In this document: positions 11,706 to 18,362 of the stretch, piece after piece
How the letters are laid out: each line of letters starts with the position of its first letter
Numbering within the stretch: position 1 is the first letter of the stretch
Assembly: GCA_002788395.1 (NCBI GenBank)
Contig: PFRF01000026.1
Location: 1-34,264 of the forward strand
DNA: 34,264 bases
Direction of reading: 5' to 3'
Source: Candidatus Levybacteria bacterium CG_4_9_14_0_2_um_filter_35_21
GTDB lineage: Bacteria > Patescibacteriota > Microgenomatia > Levybacterales > UBA12049
Notes under the pieces: generated by a model
Seen by the model: only the letters and a program-made list of their open reading frames with translations
Database searches by the model: none
Told to the model about the DNA's origin: nothing
Made by a program: the position numbers and the translations under genes

Positions 11706-13175
11706 ATGACAGATACTCAATCGGATTTAAGACAAGCAAAAATAGACAAATTGAAAAAACTAAAGGATTTAGGAATAAACCCATATCCATCCTCTTTTGA
11801 TAAAAAAAACACAGTTGATCAGGCGCTTAACTCTCTGGGAAAAATTGTAAAAATTGCAGGAAGATTATTTTCTTTCAGAGAGCATGGAAACATTGCTTTT
11901 GCAAATTTAAAAGACGAAACAGGAAAGATTCAAATATTTTTTAGAAAAGATCTTCTAGAAGATGATTATAAAAATATTAAGCTTCTGGATTTGGGAGATT
12001 TTATTGGTATTGAGGGGGAAGTTGTTAAAACAACCTCCGGAGAAATATCGGTAGCCCCAACTTCATTTATTTTGCTCACAAAGTCGATTCTGCCGCTTCC
12101 AAATGAATGGTTTGGTCTTAAAGACACAGAGCTTCGATATAGGCAAAGATATTTAGACCTTATGTTAAACCCCGAGGTTAGAGAAAGATTTAATATTAGA
12201 ACCAAAGTGGTATCGGGTATAAGGGAATATTTGGATAAATTAGGTTTTTGGGAAGTAGAAACCCCGACTCTTCAATCATTGTATGGTGGCGCAAACGCTA
12301 AGCCTTTTAAAACACACTTAAATGCATTAGGAGAAGATGTCTATCTTAGAATAGCAGATGAACTTTATTTAAAAAGACTTGTCATCGGAGGATACGAGAA
12401 AGTATATGAAATCTGCAAAGATTTTAGAAATGAAGGAATAGACCATACTCATTTTCCGGAATTTACGATGATCGAATGGTATGAAGCATATGCGGACTAT
12501 AAAAAAGTAATGGATGTTGCAGAAGGATTATTTAAACATCTTGCAAAAAAAATATACGGGAAAACTCAAATTCAAATCGAGGATAAAAAAATTGATATCG
12601 GAACAGAATGGCCAAGAATAGAGATGGCACAAATTATTAAAGAAAAACTAGGACTAGATGTAGAGAAAGAAACAAAAGAATCTTTGCTCGGCTATGTTAA
12701 GAAAAAAATGTTCGATGTGAAAATAATTGGAGGAGAAACAAAGGGACAATTAATATTTATAGTTTTTGAACATGAAATTCCGCACCTTTTAATTAAGCCT
12801 ACTTGGATAATTGATTATCCGGAAGACGTAAGTCCTCTGTCTAAAACACACAGATCAAAACCGGGATGGGTTGAAAGATTTGAGGGATATATTGGAGGTA
12901 AAGAAATTGCCGATGGATGGTCTGAGCTTACGGACCCTCAAATTCAAAGAGAAAGATTCGTTACGGATTCAGCTGTTGCCAGATTGGATAAAGAAGAAGC
13001 TCAGCATATTGATGAAGATTTTTTAACTGCAATGGAGTATGGAATGCCGCCAACCGGTGGAATAGGAATTGGAATAGATAGACTGGTAATGTTTTTTACA
13101 AACACATGGATTATAAAAGAAGTAATGCTTTTCCCAACCTTAAAACCTCAAAAAAAAATTCTAAAGGATAAATAA
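11706..13175 (+). CDS. lysS: Lysyl-tRNA synthetase, class II
   Basis: RYRQRYLDLMLNPEVRERFNIRTKVVSGIREYLDKLGFWEVETPTL, FRNEGIDHTHFPEFTMIEWYEAYADY, GMPPTGGIGIGIDRLVM. Confidence 0.97.
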   Translation: MTDTQSDLRQAKIDKLKKLKDLGINPYPSSFDKKNTVDQALNSLGKIVKIAGRLFSFREHGNIAFANLKDETGKIQIFFRKDLLEDDYKNIKLLDLGDFIGIEGEVVKTTSGEISVAPTSFILLTKSILPLPNEWFGLKDTELRYRQRYLDLMLNPEVRERFNIRTKVVSGIREYLDKLGFWEVETPTLQSLYGGANAKPFKTHLNALGEDVYLRIADELYLKRLVIGGYEKVYEICKDFRNEGIDHTHFPEFTMIEWYEAYADYKKVMDVAEGLFKHLAKKIYGKTQIQIEDKKIDIGTEWPRIEMAQIIKEKLGLDVEKETKESLLGYVKKKMFDVKIIGGETKGQLIFIVFEHEIPHLLIKPTWIIDYPEDVSPLSKTHRSKPGWVERFEGYIGGKEIADGWSELTDPQIQRERFVTDSAVARLDKEEAQHIDEDFLTAMEYGMPPTGGIGIGIDRLVMFFTNTWIIKEVMLFPTLKPQKKILKDK

Positions 13176-14097: not shown

Positions 14098-15330
14098 ATG
14101 TTAGACATTAAATTCATAAGAGAAAATACAAAGTTTGTTATTGATGGAGCAAGGAATAAGGGTGTAGAAATTGAAGGTGAAAAAATTATTAAAATAGATG
14201 AACAAACAAGAGGACTAAATGTTCAGGTGCAAAAATTAAGAGAAGAAAGAAACATCGCTGCAAAAAATAAAGACATAGAAAAAGGGAAGAGGGTAAAGCA
14301 AGAGCTGGATGAAAAAGAAAAAAATCTCAATAAACTTAGTCAAGAACTAAATGAATTATTGCTTAAGATACCAAATCCGGCTAAAAAAGATGTAAAACCG
14401 GGAAAAAACGATACGGAAAATGATATTTTAAGAAAAGTTGGAATACCTAAGAAATTCAATTTTGTCCCCAAAGATCATTTAGCACTTGGGGAAGCATTGG
14501 ACATTATTGATGTTGAAAGAGCATCTAAGATATCGGGATCAAGATTTTACTTTCTTAAAAACGAAGCAGTTCTTTTAGAGTTCGCTTTAAAACAGTTTGC
14601 TTTCGAAACTTTACTTAAGGAAGGTTTTATTCCGGTTCTTCCTCCGGTGTTAATTAAAACAGAAGTTATGAAAGATCTTGGGTATATGGAAAATGGGGGA
14701 GATGAGGATATGTATACTTTTGAAAAAGACGATTTAGTTTTGGTAGGAACTTCGGAACAATCAATTGTCGCTATGCATAGAGATGAAGTGTTAGATGCTA
14801 AGGATTTACCAAAAAGATATGTTGGTTTTTCAACTTGTTTCAGAAGAGAAGCAGGTTCTTACGGAAAAGACACTAAGGGAATTTTAAGAGCGCATCAATT
14901 TGACAAGATCGAAATGGTTTCTTTTGTAAAGATAGGAGAAGATGACAAAGAACATGAATTTTTCTTGTCTTTAGAGGAAAAATTGCTCAAAGCATTGGAG
15001 ATTCCCTACCAGGTTATTAAGATGTGTACCGGGGATTTGGGTTTTCCTGCCGCACGCAAATATGATTTAGAAGGGTGGATTCCTTCTCAGAATAAGTACC
15101 GCGAGCTTACTTCTGCCTCTACGACAACAGATTTTCAGGCAAGAAGATTGAGTATTCGTTATAAGGATGGGGACAGAACGGAATATGCAAATATTCTAAA
15201 CGGAACAGCATTTTCTACACGACCAATAATTGCAATTATGGAAAATTATCAACAAGAGGATGGGTCAATTGTTATTCCCGAGATTTTGAGAAAATGGGTT
15301 GGTAAAGATAAGATTACGTCAAAAGACTAA
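14098..15330 (+). CDS. serS: Seryl-tRNA synthetase
   Basis: MLDIKFIRENTKFVIDGARNKG, VGTSEQSIVAMHRDEVL, CFRREAGSYGKDTKGILRAHQFDKIEM, ELTSASTTTDFQARRLSIRYK. Confidence 0.97.
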   Translation: MLDIKFIRENTKFVIDGARNKGVEIEGEKIIKIDEQTRGLNVQVQKLREERNIAAKNKDIEKGKRVKQELDEKEKNLNKLSQELNELLLKIPNPAKKDVKPGKNDTENDILRKVGIPKKFNFVPKDHLALGEALDIIDVERASKISGSRFYFLKNEAVLLEFALKQFAFETLLKEGFIPVLPPVLIKTEVMKDLGYMENGGDEDMYTFEKDDLVLVGTSEQSIVAMHRDEVLDAKDLPKRYVGFSTCFRREAGSYGKDTKGILRAHQFDKIEMVSFVKIGEDDKEHEFFLSLEEKLLKALEIPYQVIKMCTGDLGFPAARKYDLEGWIPSQNKYRELTSASTTTDFQARRLSIRYKDGDRTEYANILNGTAFSTRPIIAIMENYQQEDGSIVIPEILRKWVGKDKITSKD

Positions 15331-15500
15331 TTTTTTCTCTTTTCTTAACAAAAAAACAGCATAATTAAGCTTTCTAATTTATGTTGATTTAACAGTCTAA
15401 TCTATTAGTTCTGAAGCAGGAAAAAAGTCTTGACAAAAAGTTTAAAATATTTCACCATTTAATTAGCTAACTGCCAATTCTCTATTCTGGAGAATGGTTG

Positions 15501-15512
15501 TAAGGAGGTGAT
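15501..15512 (+). promoter_or_regulatory. Full-length Shine-Dalgarno TAAGGAGGTGAT
   Basis: 12-nt match to the complement of the canonical 16S rRNA 3' tail; AGGAGG ends 8 nt before ATG 15517. Confidence 0.85.
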
Positions 15513-15516
15513 ATCC

Positions 15517-15555
15517 ATGCCAGCAAAGAAAAAGAAGAAGAAAGCAAAGAAATAA
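15517..15555 (+). CDS. 12-aa lysine-rich micropeptide MPAKKKKKKAKK (leader peptide or independent microprotein)
   Basis: ATG CCA GCA AAG AAA AAG AAG AAG AAA GCA AAG AAA TAA directly downstream of the SD at 15501; below ORF-track length cutoff. Confidence 0.65.
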   Translation: MPAKKKKKKAKK

Positions 15556-15574
15556 TTGGTGATTTGTTTGGAGA

Positions 15575-15596
15575 TTACCAATTGATCAATTGGTAA
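15575..15596. repeat. Perfect 22-bp palindrome TTACCAATTGATCAATTGGTAA
   Basis: Read directly; hairpin TTACCAATT-GATC-AATTGGTAA. Confidence 0.95.
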
Positions 15597-15636
15597 AACC
15601 CCACTTCGGAATTAAATGTTTCGAGTGGGGTTTTTT
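15595..15636 (+). terminator. Intrinsic terminator between the lysine-rich ORF and secA
   Basis: AAAACCCCACT (15595-15605) / AGTGGGGTTTT (15624-15634), run of six T at 15631-15636. Confidence 0.85.
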
Positions 15637-15644
15637 GTGGTAAA

Positions 15645-18362
15645 ATGGATAGTATGTTTAAAGCTCTATCTAAATTTTTCGATTCAAATGAAAAAGAAAT
15701 AAAAAAAATTACCCCAATTGTTTCCGAAATAAACAGTTTTGAAGATAAAATTAAAAAACTCAAAGACAGTGACTTTTCTAAAAAAACAGAAAGTTTTAGA
15801 CAAAGAATAGTAGATGGAGAGCCATTGGACTTAATCTTACCGGAAGCATTTGCGTTGGTTAGAGAGGCTTCTAGAAGATCAATCGGACAAAGACATTTTG
15901 ATGTTCAACTTATGGCGTCTGTAACTCTTGCTCGCGGTAAAATTGTAGAGCAAAGAACAGGAGAAGGGAAAACTTTATCTGCCCTTCCTGCTTTATATTT
16001 ACACTCACTAACCGGTAAAAGTGTCCATTTGGTAACAGTAAATGATTATTTAGCCCGTCGTGACTGTGGTTGGATGGGACCTATTTTTAATTTTTTAGGT
16101 CTAAAGGTATCATCAATAATTAGTGAACAATCTTTTCTGTTTGATCCCAAACATACTAATAAAACTGTAAATGATTTTAGACTTTTACATCTTAGACCAA
16201 TATCCAGAAAAGAAGCATACGAAGCGGATATTGTTTACGGAATAAATTCCGAATTTGGATTTGACTACCTAAGAGATAATATGGCAACAGATGCTTCTCA
16301 AATAGTTCAGAGAGGTTATTATTTTGCCGTTGTAGACGAGGTAGACTCGGTTCTAATAGACGAAGCCCGTACTCCGCACATTATTTCCGCACCGGATGAA
16401 GCTCCTGCCCAAAAATATTATGAATACGCAAAAATTGTTGATAAATTAAATCCGGAAACAGATTATAAAATAGACGAAAAATTGCGTACTGCTCATTTAA
16501 CTGACCATGGAATAAGTAAAATTGAAAAAATGTTTGGTGTTCCCGATATTTACGAAAAAGATTTTGACACTGTTTATCATTTGGAGGCGGCGCTTAAAGC
16601 AAGAACATTATTTCATAAAGAAAAAGACTATATTGTAAAAGATAATGAAGTTATTTTAGTTGACGAATTTACAGGAAGATTAATGACAGGTAGGAGGCTT
16701 TCGGAGGGTCTTCATCAGGCTATTGAAGCAAAGGAAAATGTTACGATTCAACGGGAATCAAAAACTCTAGCTACTGTTTCCCTTCAAAATTACTTTAGAA
16801 TGTACGAAAGACTTGCCGGAATGACAGGAACGGCAGTTACGGAAGCGGAAGAATTTAACAAAATTTATAAGTTAGACGTAGTGGTAATTCCGACGCATCG
16901 CAATATGATTAGGAAAGATGAGCCGGATGCGATTTACAAAACAGGAAGAGCAAAAATTGCGGCAGTTGCCGATTTAATTGAAAAAGCATACAAAAAGGGT
17001 CAGCCGGTTTTGGTTGGAACAACCTCGATAGAAAAAAACGAAATAGTTTCTCAGGCTCTAAAAAGAAGAGGAGTAAAACACGAAGTTTTAAACGCTAAAA
17101 ACCATGAAAGAGAAGCAGAAATTATTGCTAAGGCAGGGGAAAAAGGGGCAGTTACTGTTGCAACAAATATGGCGGGACGTGGAGTAGACATAATTTTAGG
17201 AGGAGACACTCCAAAGCTTGAGGACGGTACAGAAAAAAGAGGAACTAAGGAATGGGAGATTTGGGAAAAAAGACATAAAGAAGTGCTTAATTCAGGTGGA
17301 TTAATGGTTATTGGAACAGAAAGGCATGAATCCAGAAGAATAGATAATCAGCTAAGAGGAAGATCCGGTCGTCAGGGGGATCCGGGTGTTTCACAATTTT
17401 TTGTTGGACTGGATGATGAAATAATGAGGCTTTTTGGTGGAGATACTATTTCTAATATTATGACACGCTTTAATATGCCCGAAGATATTCCATTGCAAAA
17501 TCCGTTGGTCTCAAAAGCTATTGAGCAAGCGCAGGGAAAGGTTGAAGGGTATAACTTTGACATGAGAAAACATTTGGTTGAATATGACGATGTTATAAAC
17601 AAACAAAGGGAAATAATTTATCAGCGCAGAAGAAAAGTTTTGGAAGGGACGGAAAAAGTGGACTTAAAAACAGACATTAAAGAAATGGTTGCAAATAATA
17701 TTGCAATTACCGTGGAAATGAGTGCTATAGATTATGAGAATCCGGAAAAATCCGTAAATAGGCAAATCGTAGATAAATTTACAACTATTATTCCTTTTGA
17801 AGATGTGTCTGCCGGGCAAATTGAAACTCAATTGGAACAGTTGCATTCTAATCAAGAAAAAATCGAGTTTTTGGTAAAAATAGCAGATGATATGTATGAA
17901 GCACGTGAAAAACAAATGGGTAAGGAGTTAATGCACGAAATAGAGAAATTCGTAACACTTTCGGTAGTAGATAATTTATGGATGGATCATTTAGATGCAA
18001 TTGATAATTTGCGTCAGGGAATTGGCCTCCGTGGCTATGGGCAAAGAGATCCCTTAGTTGAATATAAGAATGAAGCCTTTACAATGTTTGAAAAGCTTTT
18101 GGCAGGAATTGACGACGAAGTAGCTCATAGAATTTACCGGGTTCAAGTTCAAAGCCAGTCCCCTGAGATGCACCAGCATCAACACCAGCATGTTGCCGCT
18201 AATAATCCAAATGCTTCCTCTGTTCCTTCCTCAACCGGTTTTCAAAATACAACAACTGTAAATACTTCAAGTTCAGTTTCGGATAAAAAAAAACTCGGTC
18301 GCAATGACCCCTGTTGGTGCGGATCCGGGAAAAAATATAAAAAATGCCACTTGCCGGATTAA
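15645..18362 (+). CDS. secA: Preprotein translocase ATPase SecA (start may be ATG 15654)
   Basis: MFKALSKFFDSNEKEIKKI, MASVTLARGKIVEQRTGEGKTL, VDEVDSVLIDEARTPHIIS, MAGRGVDIILGG, C-terminal GRNDPCWCGSGKKYKKCH zinc motif. Confidence 0.97.
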   Translation: MDSMFKALSKFFDSNEKEIKKITPIVSEINSFEDKIKKLKDSDFSKKTESFRQRIVDGEPLDLILPEAFALVREASRRSIGQRHFDVQLMASVTLARGKIVEQRTGEGKTLSALPALYLHSLTGKSVHLVTVNDYLARRDCGWMGPIFNFLGLKVSSIISEQSFLFDPKHTNKTVNDFRLLHLRPISRKEAYEADIVYGINSEFGFDYLRDNMATDASQIVQRGYYFAVVDEVDSVLIDEARTPHIISAPDEAPAQKYYEYAKIVDKLNPETDYKIDEKLRTAHLTDHGISKIEKMFGVPDIYEKDFDTVYHLEAALKARTLFHKEKDYIVKDNEVILVDEFTGRLMTGRRLSEGLHQAIEAKENVTIQRESKTLATVSLQNYFRMYERLAGMTGTAVTEAEEFNKIYKLDVVVIPTHRNMIRKDEPDAIYKTGRAKIAAVADLIEKAYKKGQPVLVGTTSIEKNEIVSQALKRRGVKHEVLNAKNHEREAEIIAKAGEKGAVTVATNMAGRGVDIILGGDTPKLEDGTEKRGTKEWEIWEKRHKEVLNSGGLMVIGTERHESRRIDNQLRGRSGRQGDPGVSQFFVGLDDEIMRLFGGDTISNIMTRFNMPEDIPLQNPLVSKAIEQAQGKVEGYNFDMRKHLVEYDDVINKQREIIYQRRRKVLEGTEKVDLKTDIKEMVANNIAITVEMSAIDYENPEKSVNRQIVDKFTTIIPFEDVSAGQIETQLEQLHSNQEKIEFLVKIADDMYEAREKQMGKELMHEIEKFVTLSVVDNLWMDHLDAIDNLRQGIGLRGYGQRDPLVEYKNEAFTMFEKLLAGIDDEVAHRIYRVQVQSQSPEMHQHQHQHVAANNPNASSVPSSTGFQNTTTVNTSSSVSDKKKLGRNDPCWCGSGKKYKKCHLPD

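Follow-up and report, generated by a model that had tools for sequence, protein, structure and literature searches.

A conserved lysine-rich micro-ORF upstream of secA in Patescibacteria is a candidate stand-alone gene for a polycationic microprotein

Analysis of a 34,264-nt stretch of DNA (the window), which comes from an 898-kb Patescibacteria genome in 60 contigs, points to a 12-codon gene lying between serS and secA. The ORF (MPAKKKKKKAKK, hereafter K-ORF; Table 1) is accompanied by a predicted promoter and a predicted intrinsic terminator, and comparison of its orthologues indicates clear selection for basic residues in the peptide. With moderate confidence, and on comparative sequence evidence, we favour the view that it is a stand-alone gene whose product is a free polycationic microprotein, and not a leader of secA. 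An earlier note on this DNA had drawn attention to a 12-aa Lys-rich ORF with a Shine-Dalgarno (SD) sequence upstream of secA, whose position was confirmed; of the roles proposed there, a free microprotein fits the sequences, and a leader that stalls ribosomes or senses lysine does not find support, as described below. According to the SecA comparison, the nearest named relatives are mostly Levybacteria records. The lysyl-tRNA synthetase gene lysS lies at window positions 11706-13175, 2.3 kb 5′ of the oligolysine ORF, probably by coincidence.

Table 1. Features of the K-ORF locus, in window coordinates
Feature	Positions	Strand	Evidence	Context
serS	14098..15330	+	TIGR00414	upstream neighbour, outside unit
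TTTTGARGC-type box TTCTGAAGC	15409..15417	+	12 nt 5′ of -35; GARGC box in 45/45 hairpin loci	
Predicted microgene promoter	15430..15458	+	TTGACA, 17-nt spacer, CACCAT (family CANNAT)	
Shine-Dalgarno AAGGAGGTGAT	15502..15512	+	11-nt match to own 16S 3′ end	
K-ORF MPAKKKKKKAKK, stop TAA	15517..15555	+	orthologues intact in 42/49 determinable family genomes; amino-acid selection	
Segment 1 ATTGGTGAT	15555..15563	+	shares last base of stop codon; pairs with segment 2	
Segment 2 TTACCAATT	15575..15583	+	partner of either segment 1 or segment 3	
Hairpin 2:3 ACCAATT-GATC-AATTGGT	15577..15594	+	GAUC loop invariant; segment 3 = 15588-15594	
Predicted intrinsic terminator of microgene	15597..15636	+	strong stem and U-tract in folds, both hairpin states	
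Extended -10 of secA TGGTAAAAT	15638..15646	+	7 nt 5′ of ATG; predicted leaderless mRNA	
secA	15654..18362	+	Pfam and NCBIfam SecA	downstream neighbour, outside unit

We searched 61 genomes of the family with SecA and read the DNA 5′ of secA. The ORF was present in 42 and absent from seven (G001, G005, G024, G025, G028, G297 and G692) of the 49 genomes in which its presence could be determined, while in the rest a contig ended too early or secA gave no match; every copy seen in the family genomes surveyed was intact. The orthologues are rich in Lys or Arg and lie between serS and secA; their lengths span 9-29 aa, with MAKKKKKKK at the short end and MAAKKKKKSTKRARKTVKRSKRKSSKKRK at the long end. 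ORF, SD and Lys-rich frame are kept in close relatives, an outcome on which the earlier note had made its proposal depend. The ORF was also found in other families of the order (L003, L113, L114), in named Levybacteria records (L033, L036, L037, L039) and, at the same place, in two families elsewhere in the class. A Lys/Arg-rich ORF, Arg-rich in one case, stands just 5′ of secA in three of the five secA-bearing genomes of family f41.

In several of these loci the ORF has a different upstream neighbour, a spermidine-synthase-like gene (PF01564), which directly precedes it in L003 (positions 856-1548), L112 (820-1467) and L150 (572-1246); L150 and L151, both with the gene, are the f41 loci whose upstream DNA was read. 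In L003 and L112 this gene itself follows serS, and the promoter element of the K-ORF sits within its 3′ end; in G055 (family f13) the order is serS, the spermidine-synthase-like gene, MAKKKKKKK, a small ORF and secA. The gene has been lost in the family of the window, where the promoter element is retained. In L003, the spermidine-synthase-like reading frame continues through the K-ORF.

The combination of SD and basic ORF exceeds what chance would provide. We looked for GGAGG or GGAGGT followed by an ORF of at least 8 aa with at least 60% Lys/Arg, and found none in 10.8 Mb of simulated sequence carrying the trinucleotide statistics of the source genome, whereas the actual genome gave one in 275 kb (the comparisons within this genome cover about 275 kb, read as stretches). 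Searches with two patterns of differing stringency hit 6 of the 60 genomes of relatives, 44 of 384 from the class and 12 of 290 from the phylum, compared to 0, 1 and 1 for the respective reversed-pattern controls. Twelve loci from outside the family (L108, L109, L139-L142, L144, L145, L173, L174, L177, L178) proved to be unrelated longer proteins or chance frames and were excluded as members. The SD itself pairs strongly with the 3′ end of the genome's own 16S rRNA (GGATCACCTCCTTTCT), the duplex being predicted at -20.3 kcal/mol; the match extends over 11 nt and not the 12 counted in the earlier note, because the leading T is unmatched. Strong SDs are rare in the window but not absent, since one other gene start (24545) carries one (AAGGAGGT).

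The eight Lys codons of the ORF are five AAG and three AAA, as the earlier note had counted, and AAG makes up 54% of the Lys codons in the relatives' K-ORFs (339/623) compared to 20% in the genome (1397/6886; binomial P about 1e-78, codons being treated as independent). No A run in the K-ORFs exceeds 8 nt, and the longest run averages 6.2 nt versus 11.8 nt expected. The avoidance of long A runs suspected earlier was thus borne out, although it is partly general, given that runs of at least three Lys elsewhere in the same genome are also enriched in AAG (33-47%). On AAA runs ribosomes slide and output falls, whereas AAG runs hold the frame (Koutmou et al. 2015, PMC4363877), so that short A runs would favour a full-length product.

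To characterize the peptide we used 66 sequences (67 listed, with the false match L177 left out). After the initial Met the residues are limited to K, A, R, T, V, P, S and, rarely, G, and Glu, Asp, Asn, Gln, Ile, Leu and the aromatic residues are entirely missing from the 66 peptides, even though several of them are one base away from Lys codons. The residue counts, with L177 included, were K 623, A 148, R 89, T 64, V 61, P 23, S 13 and G 4. There were 74 AGR (Arg) codons and no GAR (Glu) codon; the P-values for selection are overstated, as the sequences are related and not independent. Residue 2 is Ala or Pro in every listed member, which the filter required, and no other Lys-rich ORF at these loci was dropped thereby. 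Selection for a purine tract instead of a peptide was rejected, with Glu codons absent, Gly codons rare (four) and Thr, Val and Pro codons in use. Overall, start codon, SD and frame are conserved and the residues are selected, as expected of a small-protein gene, and the composition is Lys-rich, acid-free and of low complexity, a trait of H1-like proteins.

Further arguments for a gene of its own come from the flanking signals. The arrangement TTTTGARGC, a gap of 11-12 nt and TTGACA recurs in each of the 45 loci that bear the hairpin; 17 nt past TTGACA, A and T are conserved at the -10 position, and no second case of TTTGARGC plus TTGACA appeared in 275 kb of the genome. A consensus promoter scan did not flag the microgene promoter and a simple terminator scan did not report its terminator. 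Downstream, 30 of 32 loci carry a secA extended -10 (TGNTANRAT), mostly 6-12 nt from the ATG, where 0.007 would be expected per 25 nt, and the same element precedes secA in the ORF-less loci whose sequence was read. In the lineage (loci L008-L060) secA appears to be leaderless, the conserved extended -10 (TGNTAAAAT) being near the ATG in most. Two loci (L019, L024) show TTGAGGC, which resembles the GARGC box, near the secA -10. Altogether, this layout suggests that the microgene is independent of the predicted promoter of secA.

Between the stop codon and the terminator lie three segments, 1 (ATTGGTAA), 2 (TTACCAATT) and 3 (ARTTGGTAA), which can pair as 1:2 or as 2:3; segment 1 begins at the stop codon in most loci. 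In an alignment of 36 sequences, pairing 1:2 had 89% of cells paired and eight cells with two-sided changes; none of 500 shuffles scored as high, though slid controls reached similar counts of two-sided changes. Pairing 2:3 had 94% of cells paired in 36 sequences, with an invariant GAUC loop and an A/G change that preserves a U-A or U.G pair; its covariation statistics are weak, because most pairs hardly vary, and its support comes mainly from sequence conservation. Of 60 relatives, 20 contain the exact hairpin motif, each in a single copy, and the control gave 0. A DNA palindrome serving as a protein site (ACCAATTGATCARTTGGT) is less likely, as the A/G change in one arm breaks the DNA symmetry in about half of the loci. 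Searching the window and the leader against Rfam returned nothing above the gathering threshold; sub-threshold matches to BTnc005, FasX, PyrR and His leader were weak and judged to be chance.

These hairpins give the alternative of a cis-acting ORF its substance. A ribosome at the stop codon would, on the folding model, cover segment 1 and favour 2:3; ribosomes slowed on the basic codons, or at the stop, could in this manner switch 1:2 to 2:3, alter RNA stability or read-through and hence affect secA. The position of segment 1 at the stop codon, the sharing of segment 2 by two conserved pairings that are nearly equal in energy in many genomes, the persistence of the linkage to secA across families and the slow translation of Lys runs in vitro, AAG included (PMC4363877), all speak for it. 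To examine attenuation, segment 1 or segment 3 was blocked in folds of 43 loci. The terminator stem differed by 0-3 bp between the hairpin states in nearly all of them (in L012, L107 and L116 the folded stretch was too short to judge the terminator), so attenuation through alternative folding was rejected: the terminator persists in either state and the hairpin switch does not overlap it. In addition, L107, L214, L221 and L069 lack the pairing of segment 1, 1:2 is lost while 2:3 is kept in several genomes, and the whole hairpin is absent from members of f41, f5 and f8 that retain the basic ORF. A duplicated segment 2 (TTACCAATTATTACCARTTGATCA) in L009, L011, L018, L019 and L121 would allow the two hairpins to exist together. 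With a terminator that forms in both states and 1:2 missing in several genomes, the switch could not be linked to secA, which keeps its own extended -10 even in those unit-less genomes that were read. The stalling leader proposed in the earlier note is not supported, given the microgene's own promoter-like element and terminator, the leaderless-type promoter of secA that follows the terminator in 30/32 loci, the seven genomes that lack the unit, similar ORFs located away from secA and the Arg-rich variants. We regard control of secA by the ORF as unlikely, though the long-kept linkage and the hairpin switch leave it an appreciable share of plausibility.

Comparison with known regulatory ORFs leads in the same direction. 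SecM and other Sec-linked arrest peptides are likewise encoded by a small ORF directly 5′ of secA (PMC12992588). Unlike SecM, the K-ORF peptides have no signal or membrane segment (only K/A/R/T/V/P/S/G after Met), and the listed peptides lack an RAGP/RAPP-like C-terminal arrest motif. At the K-ORF locus, moreover, a predicted terminator and a separate extended -10 would stand between the ORF and secA, where SecM-type control would place both on one mRNA whose hairpin holds the secA SD, and no secA SD is seen. Most K-ORF peptides are too short to emerge from the ribosome exit tunnel. With trp/his attenuators the K-ORF shares a strong SD, a short ORF, competing segments at the stop and a terminator before the next gene; in contrast to them, its hairpins do not exclude the terminator, Lys and Arg interchange with no codon-specific run, and the downstream gene has its own predicted promoter.

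A dual-function RNA, with the transcript as a small RNA that works by way of the conserved UGAUCA hairpin and with a secondary role for the peptide, seems to us still less probable. It would account for the invariant loop, the single copy per genome of the exact hairpin form and the lack of a matching Rfam family, but not for the strong selection for basic residues or for those members of f41, f5 and f8 in which the basic ORF occurs without the hairpin. An attenuator of secA that senses lysine or Lys-tRNA, suggested by the 8/12 Lys codons and the neighbouring lysS, is hardly credible: Arg stands in for Lys freely and makes up most of the basic residues in L236, the Arg-rich orthologues at the same locus (MARKKAKRRKRR, MPKRKRAKKRK, MPARKKRATRKRTTTKKRATTRRKRR) nearly exclude it, and the folds contain no antiterminator alternative.

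Similar ORFs away from secA are consistent with a free product. In other families, SD-preceded Lys-rich ORFs (8-53 aa) occur without linkage to secA, and G031 (L120, 35 aa) and G290 (L152, 31 aa) have a second, unlinked H1-like Lys-rich ORF with a full SD. H1-like nucleoproteins contain much Ala, Thr, Val and Pro as well, and the longer relatives (MPVKKTKKTVKKTAKKK...), being rich in the same residues, resemble them. On this sequence likeness we read the K-ORF as the shortest end of a series that extends to histone-H1-like peptides of 30-53 aa in other Patescibacteria, which may be convergent. Chlamydia Hc2 shares the Lys-rich composition and varies in length through Lys-rich units, its 165-237 aa comparing with 9-29 aa for the secA-linked peptides (PMC2848022). 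No relevant Pfam or NCBIfam family was found for the longer members tested, the members of 9-12 aa being too short for such testing. Searches of open-licence papers for leaders rich in lysine, for small proteins of CPR bacteria and for H1-like proteins gave no description of the element.

As a stand-alone gene, the K-ORF would work as follows. Its dedicated promoter would make a short mRNA, strongly translated from the near-perfect SD and stopping at its own terminator, ahead of the separate promoter of secA. Removal of Met would probably leave PAKKKKKKAKK (AKKKKKKKK-like in relatives); the peptide may then accumulate and, in free form, bind polyanions such as DNA, rRNA or ribosomes. Several points count against this reading: the linkage to secA persists across families, a plain microprotein gene needs no two-hairpin element at its stop codon, seven family genomes live without the unit, the longer unlinked peptides may have arisen by convergence and no Pfam or NCBIfam model matches the longer members.

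One more specific function deserves mention, namely that an oligolysine of 8-12 residues is a ribosomally made polyamine substitute in cells mostly without the canonical spermidine route. Of the 61 family genomes, 7 gave a match to AdoMet decarboxylase (PF02675) and 54 did not, so canonical spermidine synthesis looks rare in the family. The decarboxylase was present in two of the seven genomes without the unit compared to two of the 42 with it (Fisher P = 0.09), a weak and non-significant tie that makes the polyamine link a lead only. The idea also draws on the ancestral neighbour of the unit, the spermidine-synthase-like gene, and we consider the substitution doubtful.

Annotation passes over genes of this size, and comparative evidence exists for few of them. 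In this case, selection on a peptide of 9-12 residues, together with a promoter-like element, an SD and a hairpin, indicates a gene that has persisted throughout an order of ultra-small, uncultured bacteria; its SD is near-perfect, and many genes of the genome have none. If its product is indeed a free polycation, few gene products of that kind would be smaller, and one would have to ask how RNA and DNA are neutralised in cells mostly without canonical spermidine synthesis.
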